Positions 92 to 32,155 of a DNA stretch of 32,155 nucleotides are shown in pieces (the stretch's first letter is position 1; each line of letters starts with the position of its first letter). The stretch spans positions 35,985 to 68,139 of the forward strand of contig JAABTP010000005.1 of NCBI GenBank assembly GCA_011389815.1. The letters are read 5' to 3'. This stretch comes from Desulfobulbaceae bacterium (lineage in GTDB: Bacteria > Desulfobacterota > Desulfobulbia > Desulfobulbales > Desulfobulbaceae). The notes under the pieces are model-generated. The model was not told the DNA's origin. It worked only from the letters and a program-made list of their open reading frames with translations, and searched no databases. A program made the position numbers and the translations under genes.

Positions 92-1192
92 CTACCCCTT
101 CTCCTTAATCCCCTCCAGAATGGCGTGGATAACAGCACCATCCTCGTAATCCAGTGACTCGCAGAGGGTATCCTCATCGCGCTCGCCGTCAAGGATGCGC
201 TGAATGGCCTCAACAAGATCCTCCCAGCCCAGTTCAATCAACTCTTCCAGACCTGCCTCCAGCTCATCTTGCAACTCTGGAGTGATACATGCCTCCACGA
301 CTGCATAAATTATCGCCTCATTCTCCTGAAGCTGCTGCTGCCAGCCAGGAGAGGCCAGATACGCCTGCCTGCTCCTGGCCCGGTACTCGGCAGCTTGGCT
401 GCTGTCGCCCTGCTGGTCGGCAATGCGGGCAAGCAGGGTGTAGGTCATCCATATCTGCATTGCTGCCGGGTCAAGGCTTTCGCTAATGGCCAGGGCTTCC
501 TCAGCATAGGCACGGGCCTCATCCAGACGGGCCGGGTTATTGGCTAAAAGGCTGGCAAGATTGTTCAGGGTACGGGCGATGCCGGGCTGCTCATCCGCTG
601 CCCGGAGGGCCTTTAATGCCTTGCGGAACCACTGCTCTGCCTCTTCATGGCGACCTGTATAACCACAGATTTGAGCGAGCTGTTGCCAGCTTGCGGCAGC
701 ACTGACGTTGCCCCCCAGCAAGCCCTGCTCCTCCATCAGCCGGGCTGCCTGCTGATAGGCCTGCTCTGCTGCCTCCCACTGCTCTGCCTGTTGATAGACA
801 ATACCAAGGTTGTGCGTATTCATAGCCTCTTGCATTGGTTCGTCTATGCTCCGAAAAAGGGTAATTGCTTCCTTGCAGCACTCCTCCGCCTCTACCAGTT
901 CGGCCTGTCTTCGAGCCAGGGTGCCGAGCTGGCTTTTGCTTACCGCAACCTCCCGCTTATCACCCAGCTTTTCAGAAATCTCCAGGCCTGCCTGATAGGC
1001 TTCTTTTGCCCCGCTGTAGTCGCCTTGATCACGCAGTACATCAGCCAGATCCATCCAGGCTGAGCTGGTCTGCCGCCGCACCCCGTCGCTCCGCTCCAAC
1101 CGGGCTAATTCGGTCAGCTTCTGCCGGTAGAGCTGTTCTTTCTCAAAAAGAAGCTGTGCTCTTGCTGATTGTGTTGTTTCCATTTTCATCAT
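92..1192 (-). CDS. Tetratricopeptide-repeat protein (TPR half of a CHAT/TPR pair)
   Basis: A soluble protein of up to 366 residues without signal peptide or membrane segment. Residues about 40-290 hold successive 40-residue TPR units typical of the kinesin-light-chain-like class: A-W-x-x-L-A-x-x-x-x-x-x-G-D/R-x-x-E-A patterns recur at about 45, 85, 125, 170 and 210. The last 80 residues form an acidic helical tail. GGAGG directly abuts ATGATG, so the third ATG at 1183 (nine bases downstream of the Shine-Dalgarno) may be the real start. TPR arrays bind proteins. The CHAT fragment upstream on the same strand suggests this was the sensor or partner half of a CHAT-TPR protein (inference). Its target is unknown. 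Confidence 0.8.
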   Translation of the reverse strand: MMKMETTQSARAQLLFEKEQLYRQKLTELARLERSDGVRRQTSSAWMDLADVLRDQGDYSGAKEAYQAGLEISEKLGDKREVAVSKSQLGTLARRQAELVEAEECCKEAITLFRSIDEPMQEAMNTHNLGIVYQQAEQWEAAEQAYQQAARLMEEQGLLGGNVSAAASWQQLAQICGYTGRHEEAEQWFRKALKALRAADEQPGIARTLNNLASLLANNPARLDEARAYAEEALAISESLDPAAMQIWMTYTLLARIADQQGDSSQAAEYRARSRQAYLASPGWQQQLQENEAIIYAVVEACITPELQDELEAGLEELIELGWEDLVEAIQRILDGERDEDTLCESLDYEDGAVIHAILEGIKEKG

Positions 1193-1254
1193 CCTCCATA
1201 CTGTTGAATCGGTAAATTAATGCCCCTGTTTTCTCTTCTCTGGTGGCACATACC

Positions 1255-1362
1255 ACCCTGCCCGGTGTTGAAACACCGGGCTATTCCCGGTGCTGTCCCT
1301 TTGGGACGCTGTTGCGAATCTGCTGCCTGCACGGGCACGGTATGCCGTGATCCACCCGTGCC
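1255..1362. repeat. Palindromic REP-like repeat, copy 2, ending the CHAT gene
   Basis: A group of hairpins: CCGGTGTTGAAACACCGG at about 1261-1280, a GTCCC/GGGAC hairpin at about 1296-1310, and GCACGGG...CCCGTGC at about 1330-1362 enclosing a near-palindrome (CACGGTATGCCGTG). The core at 1318-1349 matches the repeat at the window start. The CHAT reading frame runs into this repeat and stops inside it, so its last 25-30 codons are repeat-derived. Confidence 0.65.
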
Positions 1363-1946
1363 TGTTCCTGCTTTGCCAGGGCCGAGAGCACGGCATCGGC
1401 ATCGCGGCGGGGATCAATAAAGCCAGCTCCCTCCGGTCTGCTGACAATAAAGAGGAGATGCAGATTAAGCTTGGGCGCACGGGGCTGCGGGGTACGGGCA
1501 TCGCCTGCGCCGGGCAGTCCCCGCCGGATGGAGATGGGCGGGTTCTCGTTGACAAGAAAGGAGCCACCCGGCGTGTGGAGCAGCTCCCAGGGCAGAGTGA
1601 GCACGGCAGGTTCATCAGCAGCAATACTGAGGACGCGGCCCGGCTCGTTGCTCTCCAGGAAGCGGTCAAACAACTTGGCCGCCTTGCGCTCGTTATCCAG
1701 GGCCGCCTCGAACAGGGCGGTTCCCCAGACAGGCAGCCGCTCCTGCACGGCAACGGCCCGTGCATCATCCGGTTCAGCCGCATAGCTGGTTCCGTAGTCC
1801 TCCAGATACCAGCGCAGTTCTTTGAGATCGGCTTCCTTGAGGGGACTGGTGAACCCGGCAGGCGGGCTGTACTCCGCTGCCGCACCCAGCAGGGCAACGC
1901 TGACATGGGCAGCATCGGTGAAGGTCAGTTGCAGTTCTATGGACAT
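1281..1946 (-). CDS. Truncated CHAT-domain protein (N-terminal part only)
   Basis: A 221-residue frame with a good Shine-Dalgarno (AAGGAG, nine bases before ATG). Residues about 110-185 carry the start of a CHAT caspase-like domain: the LPWELLHTPGGSFLVNE and PISIRRGLP stretches, then LHLLFIVSRPE and a DPRRDADAVLSAL helix. The catalytic His and Cys motifs of CHAT peptidases lie farther downstream and are absent; the frame instead enters a palindromic repeat and ends. The product is therefore probably catalytically dead, or the rest has been deleted. Known CHAT proteins act in signalling and defence, often fused to TPRs, and a TPR gene follows 88 bases on. The truncation is seen directly; loss of function is inferred. 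Confidence 0.72.
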   Translation of the reverse strand: MSIELQLTFTDAAHVSVALLGAAAEYSPPAGFTSPLKEADLKELRWYLEDYGTSYAAEPDDARAVAVQERLPVWGTALFEAALDNERKAAKLFDRFLESNEPGRVLSIAADEPAVLTLPWELLHTPGGSFLVNENPPISIRRGLPGAGDARTPQPRAPKLNLHLLFIVSRPEGAGFIDPRRDADAVLSALAKQEQARVDHGIPCPCRQQIRNSVPKGQHRE

Positions 1947-6255: not shown

Positions 6256-6332
6256 GTTGGTAGGCCTTTGGCGAGCACATCTTTCTCTTGTTCATTTCCT
6301 GTACAGACATAGTAAATTAACGCTTCTCAAGC

Positions 6333-6540
6333 GTAACCGTATTCACCCCCTCCCCTCATTCCACACAAAAAAACTGGACAAAAAAAGAGGATCACGATAG
6401 CCTAACCGTCAGAATGTTTTTTACGAGATCTATCCGTGGAAATATCTCGCTGAGGTTATCACGGCTCGGCGTCAGGGTCTGGATGTACCTCCTCTGCCTC
6501 TTGCTGCGTAAAAAAATGAGAGGGGTCTGAACGGGGTTAC
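6333..6540. mobile_element. 208-bp IS66-like deletion derivative (MITE-like)
   Basis: The element starts GTAACCGTATTCACCCCCTC (6333) and ends with the inverted counterpart, whose reverse complement begins GTAACCCCGTTCAGACCCCT (6540 inward). The inverted repeats run about 25 bp and are imperfect. GTAA at the tips is characteristic of IS66-family ends. The interior keeps only a 3' transposase-like tail: an open frame to the stop at 6509-6511 whose end reads EVITARRQGLDVPPLPLAA. The left 80 bp closely match the last 77 bases of the window. No 8-bp target duplication is visible (TCTCAAGC before, ACAGGGGT after), so it is old or rearranged. Ends and boundaries are seen directly; the family name rests on the GTAA tips and the tail. 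Confidence 0.65.
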
Positions 6541-24172: not shown

Positions 24173-25678
24173 ATGTACTCTCCTGATGCGGAAGCCTTTG
24201 CTGAGATGATGGAACAGGCCGGACTTGTTCCCCTTCATCGGACAATTGTCGCAGATCTTGATACCCCTTTGACCATTTTTGCCAAGGTGGCGGAAAAGGA
24301 AACGCATGCCTTTCTCTTTGAATCTATGGAGGGTGGAGAGAAATGGGGACGTTATTCTTTTATCGGGTTGGATCCATTGCTCTCTTTTTCTTCTGTTAGT
24401 GATAGCGTAACCCTTTGTAAAGCAGGGCATGGGGCAAATTCTGGGGAAGAAGTCAGAGAAGGGGTGAATCCCTTTACAGAGTTACGGAACCTTTTGGCCT
24501 CGTTCAATGCCAGCACTGCACCGGGCCTGCCCCGTTTTTATGGCGGAGCAGTGGGCTTTCTTGGCTATGATATGATCCGTTTTATTGAGGCAATACCGGA
24601 TCAACATCCTCCCCGTGACCTCCCGGATTCTTCGTTTATTGTCCCTCGGCTGGTTCTTATTCATGATTCTGTGGATCAGACCCTGACTGTGGTCTGCAAT
24701 GTTGTAATGCCGGAACAGGGTGGGGAAGCTCGTGACGCCAAAAAACTCTATCAGGACGGGTGCCAACGTATTGATACGATTATTGAGCTGATCAGGAATC
24801 CGCTGCCTGCTTCGTTGGCAGCACACGTAGGGGGCTGCCCGGCGCACACCTTCACCTCCAATATGGATGAGCCGACTTTTTCCGCTATGGTGGAACGGGC
24901 CAAGGAATATATTCTCTCTGGTGATATTATTCAGGTGGTGTTGTCCCAGCGTTTTCATACTAAAACTGAGCTTGATCCCTTTCTTCTCTATCGTTCCCTG
25001 CGTCATATCAACCCCAGTCCCTACCTGTTCTATCTCCGTCTGGATGATATTATCCTGATCGGCTCATCACCAGAAATTTTAGTGCGCCTGGAAGACGGTG
25101 AGATTGAGCTGCGGCCCATTGCCGGAACCCGGAAGCGGGGTGCCACGCCACAGGAAGATAAAGCATTAGAAGAGGAGCTGCTGGCAGACCCCAAGGAACG
25201 GGCAGAGCACCTGATGCTGGTGGACTTGGGCCGTAATGATGTGGGCCGGGTGGCGGCAGGCGGCTCAGTAGCTACTGGTGATCTGTTGGTGGTTGAGCAG
25301 TACAGTCATGTTATGCATATTGTCTCTGGAGTACATGGCAAGCTGGCTGAAGGGAAAGATCAATTCGACGTGCTGGATGCCTGCTTTCCGGCGGGCACAG
25401 TGAGCGGGGCTCCCAAGATTCGGGCAATGGAGATTATCGACGAGCTGGAACCGGCCCGGCGTGGCCCCTATGCCGGGGCAGTGGGCTATTTTGGTTTTTC
25501 CGGTAATATGGATTTCTGTATCACCATCCGCACCTTTATTATGAAGGAGAACGATCTCTGGATTCAGGCTGGAGCCGGGATTGTGTCTGACTCTGTGCCG
25601 GAAAAGGAATTTGAGGAAACAGTCAACAAGGCCCAAGGCCTACGTCGGGCTGTTGAACTTGCTGAAAAGGGGTTATAG
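24173..25678 (+). CDS. trpE: Anthranilate synthase component I
   Basis: A 501-residue chorismate-using enzyme. The N-terminal region holds FLFESMEGGEKWGRYSFIG (about 47-65), the segment linked to tryptophan feedback in TrpE. The chorismate-binding domain has PIAGTRKRG, AEHLMLVDLGRNDVGRV, CFPAGTVSGAPKIRAMEII and GPYAGAVGYFGFSGNMDFCITIRT. It converts chorismate and ammonia (from TrpG) to anthranilate. The ATG lacks a clear Shine-Dalgarno. No Trp-codon leader peptide or attenuator is visible upstream, where the rpsT terminator lies close. PabB is less likely because the feedback segment and adjacent component fit TrpE. Confidence 0.93.
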   Translation: MYSPDAEAFAEMMEQAGLVPLHRTIVADLDTPLTIFAKVAEKETHAFLFESMEGGEKWGRYSFIGLDPLLSFSSVSDSVTLCKAGHGANSGEEVREGVNPFTELRNLLASFNASTAPGLPRFYGGAVGFLGYDMIRFIEAIPDQHPPRDLPDSSFIVPRLVLIHDSVDQTLTVVCNVVMPEQGGEARDAKKLYQDGCQRIDTIIELIRNPLPASLAAHVGGCPAHTFTSNMDEPTFSAMVERAKEYILSGDIIQVVLSQRFHTKTELDPFLLYRSLRHINPSPYLFYLRLDDIILIGSSPEILVRLEDGEIELRPIAGTRKRGATPQEDKALEEELLADPKERAEHLMLVDLGRNDVGRVAAGGSVATGDLLVVEQYSHVMHIVSGVHGKLAEGKDQFDVLDACFPAGTVSGAPKIRAMEIIDELEPARRGPYAGAVGYFGFSGNMDFCITIRTFIMKENDLWIQAGAGIVSDSVPEKEFEETVNKAQGLRRAVELAEKGL

Positions 25679-26424: not shown

Positions 26425-27249
26425 ATGAAGAAAGTAGCATCCCTGAAGTACGGAGTTGTTTTTAAAAAGGCTTTCTGCGACCCGGAAATTTTCACGGCCT
26501 TTGCCCAAGCTATGATCGGTCGGCCCATCAGCATTGACCATGTGGAGACAGAAAAGGAATTTGATCCGCCCATCGGCCACGTCAAACCTCGCTTTGACCT
26601 CTTTGCCGAAGACAGTGAGCATCGGCTTATTGTCGATATCCAGCATGCCCGGCTGAACGATCATTATGACCGCTTTCTCTATTATCATTGCGCGGCCTTA
26701 TTGGAACAGGTAGCAAGCTCTAAAAATTATCGTCCTCCCTTGACGGTGTATACTGTGGTTGTCCTCACCTCGGGTGACCGTCATCAGCGGGATATTGCAG
26801 TGGTTGATTTTGATCCCCATGACCTGGCAGGCAAGCCGCTTCAGGAAGTTTCCCATAAGGTGATTTATCTCTGTCCGAAATACGTTTCCGAGGCAACACC
26901 GGAGCCGTACCGGGAATGGTTGCGGGCTATTGACGATACTCTGGATGAAGAGGTGGATGAGAGCCAGTACGCTCAGGGCATTATCCAGAAGCTGTTTGAG
27001 TCCATCCGGCGGGATCATCTATCGCCTGAAGAACGGGCCAGGATGATTGAGGAGTATCATCAGGAGGAACTCCAGCAGACGAAGTTTGAAGAAGGTGTCA
27101 AAGAAGGGAAAAAAGAAGGCAAGAAGGAGGAAAAACAGTTTATTGCACAGAATTTTCTTCAAAAAGGAATTGCTCCCGATCTTGTGGCCGAGGCTACCGG
27201 TTTGTCAATGGCTGAAGTTTCGGCGTTGGAAGAAGCCCGGAATTCATGA
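26425..27249 (+). CDS. Rpn-family PD-(D/E)XK nuclease, copy 1
   Basis: A 274-residue protein of the Rpn (recombination-promoting nuclease / putative transposase) family. Nuclease core: FDLFAEDSEHRLIVDIQHA with candidate metal ligands Asp58, Asp71 and Gln73, then YYHCAALLEQ and TVYTVVVLTSGD. Family members are endonucleases that raise RecA-independent recombination; some act in phage defence and are held in check by a short protein from an internal start. The C-terminal 50 residues are copy-specific, with a Lys/Glu-rich EGKKEGKKEEK insert longer than in the other two. AGGTGA precedes ATG. It differs from copies 2 and 3 at only two residues (Gln181, Ile186) in the first 217. Confidence 0.9.
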   Translation: MKKVASLKYGVVFKKAFCDPEIFTAFAQAMIGRPISIDHVETEKEFDPPIGHVKPRFDLFAEDSEHRLIVDIQHARLNDHYDRFLYYHCAALLEQVASSKNYRPPLTVYTVVVLTSGDRHQRDIAVVDFDPHDLAGKPLQEVSHKVIYLCPKYVSEATPEPYREWLRAIDDTLDEEVDESQYAQGIIQKLFESIRRDHLSPEERARMIEEYHQEELQQTKFEEGVKEGKKEGKKEEKQFIAQNFLQKGIAPDLVAEATGLSMAEVSALEEARNS

Positions 27250-27274
27250 TGAAAGATGACCTTGGTGAACGTAT

Positions 27275-28075
27275 ATGAAAAAAGTAGCGTCCTTGAAGTA
27301 CGGAGTTGTTTTTAAAAAGGCTTTCTGTGACCCGGAAATTTTCACGGCCTTTGCCCAGGCTATGATCGGTCGCCCCATCAGCATTGATCATGTGGAGACG
27401 GAAAAAGAATTTGATCCGCCTATCGGCCACGTCAAACCTCGCTTTGATCTCTTTGCCGAAGACAGTGAGCATCGGCTTATTGTTGATATCCAGCATGCCC
27501 GGCTGAACGACCATTATGATCGTTTTTTGTATTATCACTGTGCGGCCTTATTGGAGCAGGTAGCAAGCTCTAAAAATTATCGTCCTCCCCTGACGGTGTA
27601 CACCGTGGTAGTCCTCACCTCGGGTGACCGTCATCAGCGGGATATTGCGGTAGTTGATTTTGATCCCCATGACTTGGCAGGCAAGCCGCTTCAGGAAGTT
27701 TCCCATAAGGTAATCTATCTCTGCCCAAAATATGTTTCTGAAGCAACACCGGAGCCGTACCGTGAATGGCTGCGGGCTATTGACGATACTCTGGATGAAG
27801 AGGTGGATGAAAGCCTGTATGCTCAGGGCGTTATCCAGAAGCTGTTTGAGTCCATTCGTCGGGATCATCTATCGCCGGAGGAACGGGCCAGAATGATAGA
27901 AGAATATCATCAGGAGGAGCTTCAGCAGACGAAATTTGAAGAGGGCAGAAAGGAAGAAAAACGGTTGATTGCAAAGAATTTACTGATGGATGGAGTCTCC
28001 ACGGAGCTTGTGGTCAGGGCCACCGGGTTGTCAGCGGAGGAGATAACGGCTTTGGAAACAGACCGGAATTCATGA
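27275..28075 (+). CDS. Rpn-family PD-(D/E)XK nuclease, copy 2
   Basis: A 266-residue protein. Its first 223 residues match copy 3 and, apart from two substitutions (Leu181, Val186), copy 1; the nuclease residues Asp58, Asp71 and Gln73 are intact. The C-terminal part (from residue 225) is short (RKEEKRLIAKN) and ends with its own helix pair LVVRATGLSAEEITAL. The leader GGTGAACGTAT is identical to that of copy 3. A GGAGG motif (27877-27881) stands 11 bases before the in-frame ATG at 27893, which could start a 60-residue C-terminal product. The gene is in the same transcript direction as copies 1 and 3 and dndC. Confidence 0.9.
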   Translation: MKKVASLKYGVVFKKAFCDPEIFTAFAQAMIGRPISIDHVETEKEFDPPIGHVKPRFDLFAEDSEHRLIVDIQHARLNDHYDRFLYYHCAALLEQVASSKNYRPPLTVYTVVVLTSGDRHQRDIAVVDFDPHDLAGKPLQEVSHKVIYLCPKYVSEATPEPYREWLRAIDDTLDEEVDESLYAQGVIQKLFESIRRDHLSPEERARMIEEYHQEELQQTKFEEGRKEEKRLIAKNLLMDGVSTELVVRATGLSAEEITALETDRNS

Positions 28076-28100
28076 TGAAAGATGACCTTGGTGAACGTAT

Positions 28101-28904
28101 ATGAAAAAAGTAGCATCCCTGAAGTACGGAGTTGTTTTTAAAAAGGCTTTTTGTGACCCGGAAATTTTCACGGCCTTTGCTCAGGCTATGATCGGTCGGC
28201 CCATCAGTATTGACCATGTGGAGACGGAAAAAGAATTTGATCCGCCCATCGGCCACGTCAAACCCCGCTTTGATCTCTTTGCCGAAGACAGTGAGCATCG
28301 GCTTATTGTCGATATCCAGCATGCCCGACTGAACGACCATTATGACCGCTTTCTCTATTATCATTGCGCGGCCTTATTGGAACAGGTAGCAAGCTCTAAA
28401 AATTATCGTCCTCCCTTGACGGTGTACACCGTGGTTGTCCTCACCTCGGGTGACCGTCATCAGCGGGATATTGCAGTGGTTGATTTTGATCCCCATGATT
28501 TGGCAGGCAAGCCGCTTCAGGAAGTCTCACATAAGGTTATCTATCTCTGTCCGAAATACGTTTCCGAAGCAACACCGGAGCCGTACCGTGAATGGCTGCG
28601 GGCTATTGACGACACTCTGGATGAAGAAGTGGATGAGAGCCTGTATGCTCAGGGCGTTATCCAGAAGCTGTTTGAGTCCATTCGTCGGGATCATCTATCG
28701 CCGGAGGAACGGGCCAGAATGATAGAAGAATATCATCAGGAGGAGCTTCAGCAGACGAAATTTGAAGAGGGGGTCAAAGAGGGGGAAAAGGAGGCAAAAC
28801 GGCTGATTGCGAAAAATTTGATGCGCGAAGGAGTTGCTCTTGAACTTGTGGCTGAGGCTACCGGTTTGTCGGCGGAGGAGATAGCGAGGTTGGAGAAAGG
28901 ATGA
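28101..28904 (+). CDS. Rpn-family PD-(D/E)XK nuclease, copy 3, coupled to dndC
   Basis: A 267-residue protein, identical to copy 2 up to about residue 224, with the nuclease residues Asp58, Asp71 and Gln73. The tail has GVKEGEKEAKRLIAKNLMREG and ends in a shorter ATGLSAEEIARLEKG. A GGAGG (28703-28707) lies before the internal ATG at 28719, as in copy 2. The stop TGA (28902-28904) is one base before the TTG start of dndC, and the Shine-Dalgarno of dndC lies within this gene's last codons, so the two genes are translationally coupled. This ties the Rpn array to the Dnd genes. Confidence 0.9.
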   Translation: MKKVASLKYGVVFKKAFCDPEIFTAFAQAMIGRPISIDHVETEKEFDPPIGHVKPRFDLFAEDSEHRLIVDIQHARLNDHYDRFLYYHCAALLEQVASSKNYRPPLTVYTVVVLTSGDRHQRDIAVVDFDPHDLAGKPLQEVSHKVIYLCPKYVSEATPEPYREWLRAIDDTLDEEVDESLYAQGVIQKLFESIRRDHLSPEERARMIEEYHQEELQQTKFEEGVKEGEKEAKRLIAKNLMREGVALELVAEATGLSAEEIARLEKG

Positions 28905-28905
28905 A

Positions 28906-30261
28906 TTGTATATTGTTGATTTTTTTGGTGACGCATTGAAAGAATTATTACAGGAAACCCGTGATGCTTTACGTAGCAACTATCTTGCTGATGATAGGCC
29001 GTGGGTTGTCGCTTTTTCCGGGGGCAAAGATTCGACGTTGGTTTTGCAGCTGGTGTATGAGCTGTTGCTTGAACTGGGCGATAAGGCGGTAAAACCCGTT
29101 CACATTGTCTGTTCTGACACCCGTGTGGAACCGCCGAACATTGCCGATTATATTCACACGAGTTTGCAGCAACTTAAAATACATGCCAAGCAATGCCGTT
29201 TTCCTCTCTTTGTTCATATTGTTCAGCCGACACCCAAGGAGAGCTTCTGGTTTAATGTCATAGGGAAGGGGTATCCGACACCGACTTCCAGCTTCCGTTG
29301 GTGTACCACAAAAATGAAGATCAAGCCGAGCCGGAGGGTGATTGATAGGATTGTCAAAGAACATGGCGGGGTAATCATTCTGATTGGTGTGAGAAAATCA
29401 GAGAGTTCCAATCGTGCTAAGACCATTCAGGCACGCGAGTACACCAGTCGCGGCCTCCATTCTCATGAAGATATTCCCGACGCCTTGATTATGTCGCCCA
29501 TTGCCTATTGGGATACCGATTCGGTCTGGGATTATTTGTTTACAAACAATCCGGCACCTTGGGGGATAGACCATAAATTCATGTTAAATCTCTATCGGCA
29601 GGCCAGTGGCGGTGAATGCCCGGTCGCTTTGGATTTAAACACGCAATCCTGTGGCAACAGCCGGTTCGGGTGCTGGACCTGTACGGTGGTTAGGGAAGAT
29701 AAGTCCATGAAGGGCTTTATTGATTCCGGCGCGACCGAACTTACTCCTTTGTATGATTTCAGAAATCGTTTAAGAAATGATATACGCCCTAATCCTTCGA
29801 TGCGGATGAACCAGCGAAGAGACGGAAGCCCTGCTCCGGGCGGCAAAGGGCCGTTTACACCAGAGGCGCGACAGAAAATACTTGCGGAATTGTTACAGTT
29901 GGAGGTGGATACGAAGCAACGTCTTATCAATGATGATGAGCTGGCCCATATTCAGCTACAATGGGCAGAAGATTTTGATACCCGTGGAACATTGGTTTTT
30001 GAACTGGCAAAAAAATATGGCCGGAACATAAAACAATTGGAGGGTGATTTGATGGAAATTCAGCGTGATAAAAGGGATGAACTTTTACTTGAGCTGGCTG
30101 CCGAACATGAAATTAACGAACAATGGGTTTATGAATTGATGAACTTGGTTGTCCAGAAATATCCGCCTTCAAACTTGCTTGGGAATAAAAAGGCATTGGT
30201 ACGCGATGTTCAAAAGGTCATTGAACATGCCGTTACAGCGGCAGAAGCGGCGGAACAATGA
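28906..30261 (+). CDS. dndC: DndC-type DNA phosphorothioation protein
   Basis: A 451-residue PAPS-reductase/ATP-pyrophosphatase-like enzyme. Pyrophosphatase loop SGGKDST (38-44), CSDTRVEPP (69-77), RWCTTKMK (131-138), GVRKSESSNR (161-170), and the cluster cysteines Cys238, Cys249, Cys256 and Cys259 in a CPV...CGNSRFGCWTC layout typical of DndC, followed by VREDKSM. The TTG start at 28906 has AAAGG five bases upstream, inside copy 3 of rpn. DndC binds a [4Fe-4S] cluster and activates the DNA backbone for sulfur insertion. No dndB lies upstream; Rpn genes occupy that place. The SspD homologue of the related single-strand system is the other possibility, but the following dndD favours Dnd. Confidence 0.92.
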   Translation: MYIVDFFGDALKELLQETRDALRSNYLADDRPWVVAFSGGKDSTLVLQLVYELLLELGDKAVKPVHIVCSDTRVEPPNIADYIHTSLQQLKIHAKQCRFPLFVHIVQPTPKESFWFNVIGKGYPTPTSSFRWCTTKMKIKPSRRVIDRIVKEHGGVIILIGVRKSESSNRAKTIQAREYTSRGLHSHEDIPDALIMSPIAYWDTDSVWDYLFTNNPAPWGIDHKFMLNLYRQASGGECPVALDLNTQSCGNSRFGCWTCTVVREDKSMKGFIDSGATELTPLYDFRNRLRNDIRPNPSMRMNQRRDGSPAPGGKGPFTPEARQKILAELLQLEVDTKQRLINDDELAHIQLQWAEDFDTRGTLVFELAKKYGRNIKQLEGDLMEIQRDKRDELLLELAAEHEINEQWVYELMNLVVQKYPPSNLLGNKKALVRDVQKVIEHAVTAAEAAEQ

Positions 30262-32075
30262 TTTTTGAAAAAATTATCCTTAACAATATGTTTTCCTATT
30301 ATGGAGAATCTATTTTTGATCTTACCGGAAAAACCGATCAGAAAAATATTGTTTTGATCAGCGGGAGAAACGGGTTTGGTAAGACCAGCTTTCTTAATTC
30401 GATAAAATTGCTTTTTACTGGCGTGACCGATGATCTGCGTTCAGAAGTACAAAGTCAACGAAGGCCCTCTCCAAAGCGCTATGTTATAGGCTCAGGCGAT
30501 GACTGGTGGGGAATTATCAACCGCCGTGCCAAGGCGGATAACGCCTTATGCAGCGTTGAGATAATATGGAGAGAAAATAGTGAGCAAGTAATTGCTCGTC
30601 GAGAGTGGATTGTACAAAACGATCGATATGATGAACAGTTGAGCATCAGGGTCTCCTCCAAGGTTTTGAAAAATGAGGAAGCGCAATCCTTTTTGGATAA
30701 GCGCTTGCCTGAAGAATATGTGCCGTTTTTCTTTTTTGATGGGGAAAAAATCCAGGAGTTGGCTTCAGCGAATATTGCTCGAACCGCAGAGCATATAGAG
30801 CGGCTGTTAAATATTTCCCATGTGAATAATCTCCGGGAAGCTCTGAAAGCTGCCATTGCAGATTGGCGAAGCGACGGAGCATTAGATCAGGCGGCAGAAG
30901 CGGAACTGGAAAAGGCAAAGAATGACTACCGCATTGTGGCGAAAAAGATTCAGGCCGAATTGCAGCAGAAAAAAGAGATACAATACGATCTTGAACAGTT
31001 GGAAGAGGAAATTGCTCAATTGCAGGAAAGGCAGGAGAGTTCCCGCAGTTTTATAAGTCAGCAGGATGAAGTTAGTGTTAAACGAAGGATTAAAGAACTC
31101 CAGCAGGAAAAGGAAGAGCTTGTCAATGAGATAGGTGAGGAATTACCGTATGATATTGTCCTGCTGGCGAATGAGAAACTGTTGAGCAAAGTTCAGGGCG
31201 AATTGAACAAGCTACTTGCAGAGAATAGCGTACAGGATAATTCCTTGGTGGAACAACTCCGAGATTTTTTACCGGATGATATCTTTGACCGTCCACCATT
31301 TCCTCTTAATCCAGTGTTGCCGCTTTCTGAAGAACAAAAAGGGTTTTATAAAGAAAAATTGATCAGAAAACTTGAGGAGTATACACAGGGTCAGAGAAGG
31401 GGAGTAAATAGTTCCTTCTTCCCTTTGAATATAGCGGACGCTAACATCTTACAAGAATGCATACAGCCCTATTTGGACAGTCGCCTTCTACGTGTAGAAA
31501 GAAAAAAGGCATTTGATCAATTGCAAGCTGTAAAGAAGAAAATTTATCAATTGGATGAAGAAGTACAAAATATCGGTGGATTATCAGCAGATGAAAAACA
31601 AGATTACGAGCAGCGGAAAGTCGTTCTTAAAGAAAAAAGGAGTGAACGTGACGAGTTGGTTTATCAATTAGGAAAAGTTAATAGCAGGGAAGATGGTTTT
31701 ATTAAAAAAATTGAAGAGCTAAAGAGAGAGATTGGTAGAAAGGAGCAATCACTAGAGGTTACTAAAATTTTTAGAAAGAAGATTGATAAGGCTCGTGAGG
31801 TGCAAAGATTTTTCAATGAATATAAAGATCGCTTGAAAAAGCAGCGAAAGGATGAACTCGGAAAGTTTATAAATCAGTACTTCAAACAGCTCATGACTTC
31901 AAATGTGCTGATTCAGCATATTGCGGTAGATGATAATTTCGGTGTTCATTATCAAGATAAAGATGGTTTACCAGTTGGAATGGGCAATTTGTCTGCGGGG
32001 ATGAAACAGCTGGCAGCTACTTCTTTATTATGGGCACTGAAAACTTGCTCGGGTTATAATGGACCCACATTTTAG
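30258..32075 (+). CDS. dndD: DndD ATPase, truncated before Walker B
   Basis: A 605-residue SMC/Rad50-like ATPase that starts in an ATGA overlap with dndC. Walker A is GRNGFGKT (36-43), DGEKIQEL follows near residue 160, two long coiled coils span about 195-290 and 410-545, and the ABC signature is LSAGMKQ (578-584). The frame then stops at TAG (32073-32075), right after GPTF, where family members continue with the Walker B/D-loop block (usually IDTPLGRLD-like) and about 60 more residues. The stop is three bases before an IS66-like end. Without Walker B and the H-loop the ATPase should be inactive. A one-base loss in the T run could also explain the stop. Confidence 0.85.
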   Translation: MIFEKIILNNMFSYYGESIFDLTGKTDQKNIVLISGRNGFGKTSFLNSIKLLFTGVTDDLRSEVQSQRRPSPKRYVIGSGDDWWGIINRRAKADNALCSVEIIWRENSEQVIARREWIVQNDRYDEQLSIRVSSKVLKNEEAQSFLDKRLPEEYVPFFFFDGEKIQELASANIARTAEHIERLLNISHVNNLREALKAAIADWRSDGALDQAAEAELEKAKNDYRIVAKKIQAELQQKKEIQYDLEQLEEEIAQLQERQESSRSFISQQDEVSVKRRIKELQQEKEELVNEIGEELPYDIVLLANEKLLSKVQGELNKLLAENSVQDNSLVEQLRDFLPDDIFDRPPFPLNPVLPLSEEQKGFYKEKLIRKLEEYTQGQRRGVNSSFFPLNIADANILQECIQPYLDSRLLRVERKKAFDQLQAVKKKIYQLDEEVQNIGGLSADEKQDYEQRKVVLKEKRSERDELVYQLGKVNSREDGFIKKIEELKREIGRKEQSLEVTKIFRKKIDKAREVQRFFNEYKDRLKKQRKDELGKFINQYFKQLMTSNVLIQHIAVDDNFGVHYQDKDGLPVGMGNLSAGMKQLAATSLLWALKTCSGYNGPTF

Positions 32076-32078
32076 GAC

Positions 32079-32155
32079 GTAACCGTTCACCCCCCTCATT
32101 CCTCACAAAAAAAGATTGGACAAAAAAAGAAGATCACGATAGTTTAAGGGTCACA
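32079..32155. mobile_element. Left end of an IS66-like element, running off the window
   Basis: Starts GTAACCGTTCACCCCCCTCA and matches 6333-6411 closely over its whole length, including GGACAAAAAAAGA and GATCACGATAG. Its position just after the dndD stop makes it the likely cause of the truncation. Whether it is a full insertion sequence or another short derivative cannot be seen. Confidence 0.65.

Follow-up and report, generated by a model that had tools for sequence, protein, structure and literature searches.

The stretch analysed here (the window) is the final 32,155 bases of a 68,139-base contig, C190, in the 4.0 Mb, 233-contig genome of a Desulfobulbaceae bacterium. Close to the contig end, five genes follow one another on one strand in the order rpn1-rpn2-rpn3-dndC-dndD, bringing together three nuclease genes of the Rpn family and two genes of the Dnd DNA phosphorothioation module. 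A first-pass annotation had placed three rpn genes directly before dndC-dndD on one strand, an arrangement that intact rpn frames and family matches confirm. The second dnd gene is broken, and the useful result of the present analysis is the operon in relatives to which this broken locus points. The features concerned are as follows:

26425..27249, + strand: rpn1, 274 amino acids, with two extra four-residue repeats in the C-terminal domain (TIGR01784 and PF12784 above cut-off)
27275..28075, + strand: rpn2, 266 amino acids, with zero extra repeats (PF12784 above cut-off)
28101..28904, + strand: rpn3, 267 amino acids, with a single extra repeat (PF12784 and TIGR01784 above cut-off)
28906..30261, + strand: dndC, with the SGGKDST loop and conserved cysteines (TIGR03183 above cut-off; alignment)
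30258..32075, + strand: dndD, truncated at the Walker B position (TIGR03185; alignment)
32079..32155, + strand: end of a high-copy repeat resembling an insertion sequence (IS), which begins GTAACCGTTCA and ends the contig (genome self-search)

A broken dndC-dndD pair at a contig end

DndC scores 355.6 bits against TIGR03183 (cut-off 290.4). Its start is ambiguous between TTG 28906, which lies one base beyond the rpn3 stop (TGA 28902-28904), and TTG 28936, which would set the two genes 31 bases apart and is nearer to where the closest relative starts; the earlier statement that the rpn3 stop and the dndC start are one base apart is therefore not established, although the codon it relied on exists. 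The four-base overlap reported for dndC and dndD is exact, the dndC stop (TGA 30259-30261) running over the dndD ATG at 30258.

The dndD gene is broken. Its product has 605 amino acids compared with 671-686 in nine relatives (L088, L090-L092 and L094-L098), its frame stops where four aligned relatives carry the Walker B motif, about three bases before the repeat at the contig end, and its match to TIGR03185 (166.1 bits) falls below the cut-off of 245.85. The full-length DndD model has a single match in the genome at E 0.001, the window copy. Because the contig ends there, dndE and other partners cannot lie further along the window. A promoter and terminator scan was uninformative (8 against 4.9 +/- 2.2 and 4 against 4.1 +/- 2.2 in shuffles).

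The intact operon in relatives

A contig scan yielded 12 dndC loci, and a survey of the class at E 1e-60 found DndC in 12 of 257 genomes, the window genome included, with 12 loci outside it. Three class-survey loci (G055, G167, and G011) were already in the contig set, so that 21 distinct loci result; G055 and L088 are the same contig, from UBA5173, which belongs to the same family as the window genome. Nine of the 12 contig loci reach past dndD, the other three ending too early, and in all nine dndD is followed by a gene, here called X, for a DndE domain fused to FtsK (DndE::FtsK; PF08870 and PF01580 in the two scanned; split in L092). Behind X, in eight of the nine, come an ATPase gene (Y) and a TOPRIM-like gene (Z, which contains a stop in L090), and in the ninth, that of the closest relative, L088, 28 residues of Y are left. 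A gene for DNA polymerase III alpha (L088:15931-19470), which shows LAGLIDADG matches and also intein matches that fall below cut-off, lies near the L088 operon.

The association extends beyond these contigs. Among 72,556 plasmid records, Y was detected at E 1e-20 on two, both rhizobial, and in each it comes after dndC, dndD, and X (one of the two has split frames) and before a relative of Z. At E 1e-25, Y occurs in 8 of the 257 class genomes: four with DndC (window genome included), three congeners with an eroded hotspot, and G234. On the G011 contig, which ends 96 bases after Y, Z is beyond view. Fisher tests that ignore shared ancestry give p 1.8e-4 for all 12 DndC genomes and p 1.9e-6 for those whose DndC reaches 46 percent identity or more, a group defined once the data had been seen. 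A collection of phages held no Y at E 1e-10.

A PARIS-like pair as candidate effector

The nearest known parallel to Y-Z is PARIS, likewise encoded by adjacent genes for an ABC ATPase (AriA) and a TOPRIM nuclease (AriB); according to the accessible text of two sources, AriA, on sensing an antirestriction protein, lets go of AriB, which then cleaves tRNA (PMC12839542, PMC12707154). The published rule for PARIS asks for at least 32 bits against AAA_15 or at least 27 bits against AAA_21, together with at least 27 bits against DUF4435 (PMC9122126). Y lies above the ATPase thresholds, with 58.1 and 61.1 bits to AAA_15 and AAA_21 in L103, and by its sequence is an AriA/PtuA-like ABC ATPase.

For Z, the evidence is chiefly structural and points to a predicted AriB-like fold. 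The model of Z from L096, with a predicted local distance difference test score (pLDDT) of 80.5, aligns with AriB (VIA-align) at Z-scores of 14.8 (8ux9_A) and 14.7, over 239 and 237 residues and with root-mean-square deviations of 4.0 and 3.9; the best fold other than AriB is that of the OLD nucleases, at a Z-score of 8.4. The PADLOC AriB model matches two Z proteins (E 1.4e-5 and 3e-5). Residues E26, D81, and D83 are invariant over nine Z sequences, and glutamate 26 bears the number of the residue mutated in AriB, a likeness of numbering.

Several observations weigh against so close a comparison and against a strict bond between the pair and the Dnd genes. In a Pfam scan of four Z proteins, among which the Z of contig C29 (below) was not included, DUF4435 reached 18.2 and 18.9 bits in two, under the published threshold, and the other two were unmatched; with Y passing and Z failing, the pair is PARIS-like and not PARIS by that rule. 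Foldseek ranks AriB first for Z, but weakly (E 2e-3; template modelling score 0.41), the PADLOC search returned no match for Z of L096, and AriB was absent from the results when Z was searched by profile against PDB sequences. Y, at about 385 residues compared with 464 for AriA, matches PtuA and retron ATPases in the PDB about as well as AriA, and its structure model (pLDDT 65.7) is too poor to use. As to the bond with Dnd, two other plasmids have DndE::FtsK systems without Y-Z, three congeners have Y without dndC, and G234 has a broken Y and a Z with no dnd match in the 1.5 kb before Y; the pair is thus not strictly tied to dnd.

Since X, Y, and Z follow dndC-dndD in relatives and the predicted fold of Z is AriB-like, the effector of this Dnd type is likely the PARIS-like pair, and not Rpn. 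In the intact operon, dndC-dndD-dndE::FtsK-Y-Z, DndC would insert sulfur and DndD would, with the DndE::FtsK protein, scan or move along DNA. Y-Z may act similarly to AriA-AriB, by analogy, as the effector: the ATPase would hold its partner and sense, and the TOPRIM nuclease, released upon infection, would stop growth. We tentatively propose, as a reading about which we remain slightly on the doubting side of even, that the five genes form a distinct phosphorothioation defence whose dedicated PARIS-like effector guards the sulfur system and kills or halts the cell when a phage blocks it.

The competing view, possible but rather doubtful, is that Y-Z is a PARIS-like system located near dnd genes by happenstance, with no functional tie. 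PARIS-like pairs have also been recruited into BREX loci, as stated in the accessible parts of PMC12839542 and PMC9009780, and G234 carries Y-Z without visible dnd; such independence sits poorly with an order repeated in eight of nine loci that span Desulfobacterota and Gammaproteobacteria, and with the presence of dndC, dndD, and DndE::FtsK on both plasmids that carry Y.

Three intact Rpn nucleases

All three rpn frames are intact and are separated by 25 and 25 bases. PF12784 exceeds its cut-off in all three, as does TIGR01784 in the two copies scanned (rpn1 and rpn3). Between copies, the 224 N-terminal codons differ at 0.2-0.6 percent of nonsynonymous sites (pN 0.002-0.006) and at 21-32 percent of synonymous sites (pS 0.21-0.32), while nonsynonymous differences over the C-terminal 39-43 codons reach 22-27 percent (pN 0.22-0.27). 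By sequence, this C-domain variation is the pattern reported for RpnS, a self-specific inhibitor in the variable Rpn C-terminus, according to the accessible part of PMC10327210 (Zhong et al., 2023), which also describes rpn arrays that arise through duplication in tandem and the grouping of rpn with further genes for defence. Each window gene contains an in-frame ATG that could begin such an inhibitor of 60-68 residues, preceded by GGAGG in two of the three:

27043..27249, + strand: putative internal RpnS start in rpn1, 68 amino acids, at an in-frame ATG within the conserved ARMIEEY (after PMC10327210)
27893..28075, + strand: putative internal RpnS start in rpn2, 60 amino acids, GGAGG upstream
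28719..28904, + strand: putative internal RpnS start in rpn3, 61 amino acids, GGAGG upstream

Residues 225-263 of rpn3 match RpnA (the 49-residue chain 7th0_A) weakly, at E 0.24. The array shares with the RpnL/RpnS toxin-antitoxin nucleases of that study a PD-(D/E)XK domain, a variable C-terminus with four-residue repeats, tandem arrangement, and an internal ATG; what sets it apart is its place at a chromosomal hotspot and its three copies, whose catalytic domains are nearly identical. It looks like three independent RpnL/RpnS-type nuclease-inhibitor pairs, in which each Rpn would most likely be a full-length toxic nuclease that its own C-terminal part curbs and that acts independently of sulfur marks on DNA.

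A very recent duplication of the copies is ruled out, because 21-32 percent of synonymous sites differ. Despite this divergence, the 29-base stretches running from one rpn stop towards the next start (27247-27275 and 28073-28101) are identical, which makes some gene conversion possible, as is selection on the start region. The family is abundant in this genome, with 17 matches to rpn1 at E 0.001, some being pieces of one gene.

A hotspot between trpEG and lolCD-lon

The left flank of the array is formed by two anchor genes:

24173..25678, + strand: trpE, left hotspot anchor (TIGR00564, 549 bits, above cut-off; synteny in five congeners, the G062 copy cut by the contig start)
25681..26298, + strand: trpG, left anchor (TIGR00566, 247.7 bits, above cut-off)

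Congeners here are the seven other species of the genus; the hotspot was read in five (G059-G063), with G058 and G064 left out. Rpn matches occur in all eight genus genomes, the window genome included, and DndC was detected by hidden Markov model (HMM) in none of the seven congeners. In all five congeners read, the trpG-lolC interval contains an rpn, which in four immediately follows trpG, so its placement is not due to chance; an intact dndC is found in none of them, and the cargo varies. In G059, rpn is immediately followed by a remnant of dndC, about 40 codons long, and then by the Lamassu-like genes LmuA, LmuC, and LmuB (PADLOC; L102:8822-12302) and another Rpn. The rpn-dndC junction is therefore old, predating the split between the window species and G059. 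In G060 a second rpn is broken and the cargo is a GHKL-type ATPase plus Y; G061 holds an AlbA_2 protein; G063 has two rpn in tandem, a 368-residue protein, and Y. The G062 hotspot holds Y and Z and, between these and rpn (L103:5865-6845), a protein that matches the phosphorothioated-DNA restriction endonuclease family NF045808 at 131 bits, below the cut-off of 180. That protein sits where dndCDE would be expected, and no DndC was found in G062, a genome 69 percent complete.

Mobile elements and the probable far side of the locus

The last 86 bases of the window have 29 matches in the genome, the window copy included, and 27 of the other 28 start at the equivalent of 32076-32079. All 12 matches returned with a locus lie within 26 bases of a contig end, as expected where an assembly breaks at the end of an IS. 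At window 6332-6411, between longer open reading frames (ORFs), lies a copy of this repeat end (82 percent), and another copy adjoins a CRISPR-like array of short spaced repeats at L029 (contig C201 of G000, from the contig start). On the left side of the window (92-1946), a 366-residue ORF is flanked by two minus-strand ORFs (1217-1915 and 1281-1946) that overlap one another in different frames and may be a broken gene.

Contig C29 (10,579 bases) was recovered by a DNA search that used the hotspot of a congener as query. Towards lon it carries a different repeat (seven matches, itself included), about 116 C-terminal residues of Y, an intact 285-residue Z, small ORFs, lolC, lolD, and lon, as far as which it was read; the last three were named on the congener locus L104, where lolCE and lon exceed their cut-offs and LolD falls below. 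On the strength of synteny, we infer that C29 is the other side of the window locus, with Y interrupted by a repeat there too, and the simplest reading would be that the middle was lost between two mobile elements. Against this, the middle may be unassembled rather than deleted. The two repeats find no support as the ends of a single IS, since the C29 repeat is a different one, whose end is not the complement of GTAACCG.

It is unlikely, on the whole, that the truncation and the repeat at the window end are products of assembly and that a complete dnd operon exists in the genome. The contig does end inside a repeat, in an assembly of 233 contigs, but the dndD stop falls just before that repeat and outside the part common to most copies, Y is cut by a repeat on C29 as well, and no DndE::FtsK gene or second DndD match was found. 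The DndE::FtsK query from L088 matched only two FtsK-like frames (710 and 776 amino acids), over 151-500 and 261-475 of its 508 residues and thus outside the DndE part, in an incomplete assembly that was not searched for stand-alone DndE. No Y sequence beyond the C29 piece was matched in the genome. DndFGH, PbeABCD, and SspE, the restriction partners proposed for phosphorothioation modules in the accessible text of PMC12707154, did not come to light when ORFs of the two flanks, which were not HMM-scanned throughout, were inspected by eye; a single distant DndF query, run with no positive control, gave no match in the genome at E 0.1, which is weak evidence.

Rpn genes as probable hotspot residents

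The first-pass annotation had suggested two roles for the rpn genes, as restriction partner of the phosphorothioation genes or simply as neighbour in a defence island. With the window Rpn as query (blastp and tblastn, which a distant Rpn would escape), rpn was detected in none of the 21 dndC loci outside the genus and in none of four plasmid dnd loci, within the flanks available. These upstream flanks are short in places: 87 bases (L090) and 745 bases (L095) before dndC, and about 1.4-1.5 kb in seven of the 21 loci (G013, G113, G116 twice, G129, G192, and G209). At 10 loci, a Pfam scan of a single ORF nearby upstream, in some cases not the closest one, revealed no PDDEXK_2, and G034, whose weaker DndC (33.7 percent) places it outside the 21, likewise showed no rpn. 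The adjacency proposed as a test thus exists in one congener, G059, as a remnant, and did not turn up outside the genus.

A role for Rpn as restriction or effector partner to dndCD, with a single transcript yielding both a sulfur mark and the three nucleases acting on that mark, is accordingly very improbable and is rejected on distribution: the close spacing on one strand, the junction shared as a remnant by G059, and the strong purifying selection on three copies speak for it, but rpn is kept without intact dndC in all five congeners read, went undetected in the available flanks of the 21 outside and four plasmid loci, the partner that recurs being Y-Z, and is intact here beside a broken dndD. 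The rpn genes, persisting where dnd is gone, are best seen as hotspot residents, and the island-neighbour suggestion is the one that fits a hotspot with rpn and varying cargo.

Taken as a whole, the locus is probably a defence hotspot between trpEG and lolCD-lon, holding a separate Rpn array and the wreck of a phosphorothioation operon that is intact in relatives, where it has the putative Y-Z effector. Gene order, remnants, and conservation come from sequence, the AriB-like fold of Z is predicted, and the activities, the link to C29, and the loss of the middle are inferred.

Relation to known systems and significance

The relatives share the dndC, dndD, DndE::FtsK order with Dnd systems in which DndE is fused to HerA/FtsK (clade 3; Rakesh, Aravind, and Krishnan, 2024, PMC10853773), a study whose accessible part describes this fusion and stand-alone nucleases bordering Dnd loci as suicide effectors. 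They differ from clade 3 in that their operon continues with a PARIS-like pair, none being named in that part of the paper; no fusion gene turned up in the window genome. The word Rpn is absent from the main text of the same paper, and the accessible text of PMC12707154, in which rpn appears as a toxin-antitoxin system located in a defence island and PARIS as guarding restriction, links neither to Dnd. The searches made of open-licence papers gave no account of a Dnd operon that includes either a PARIS-like pair or Rpn.

According to the accessible part of PMC10853773, 3,416 taxa have a Dnd modification component plus some linked nuclease, and only 806 have DndFGH. The five-gene operon joining a sulfur module to a PARIS-like pair offers a concrete candidate arrangement, paralleled by the recruitment of PARIS into BREX loci (accessible text of PMC12839542). 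The hotspot itself shows rpn genes persisting while adjacent cargo is gained, broken, and replaced. If true, a dedicated PARIS-like effector would account for defence by those Dnd loci that lack DndFGH, Pbe, and Ssp partners.

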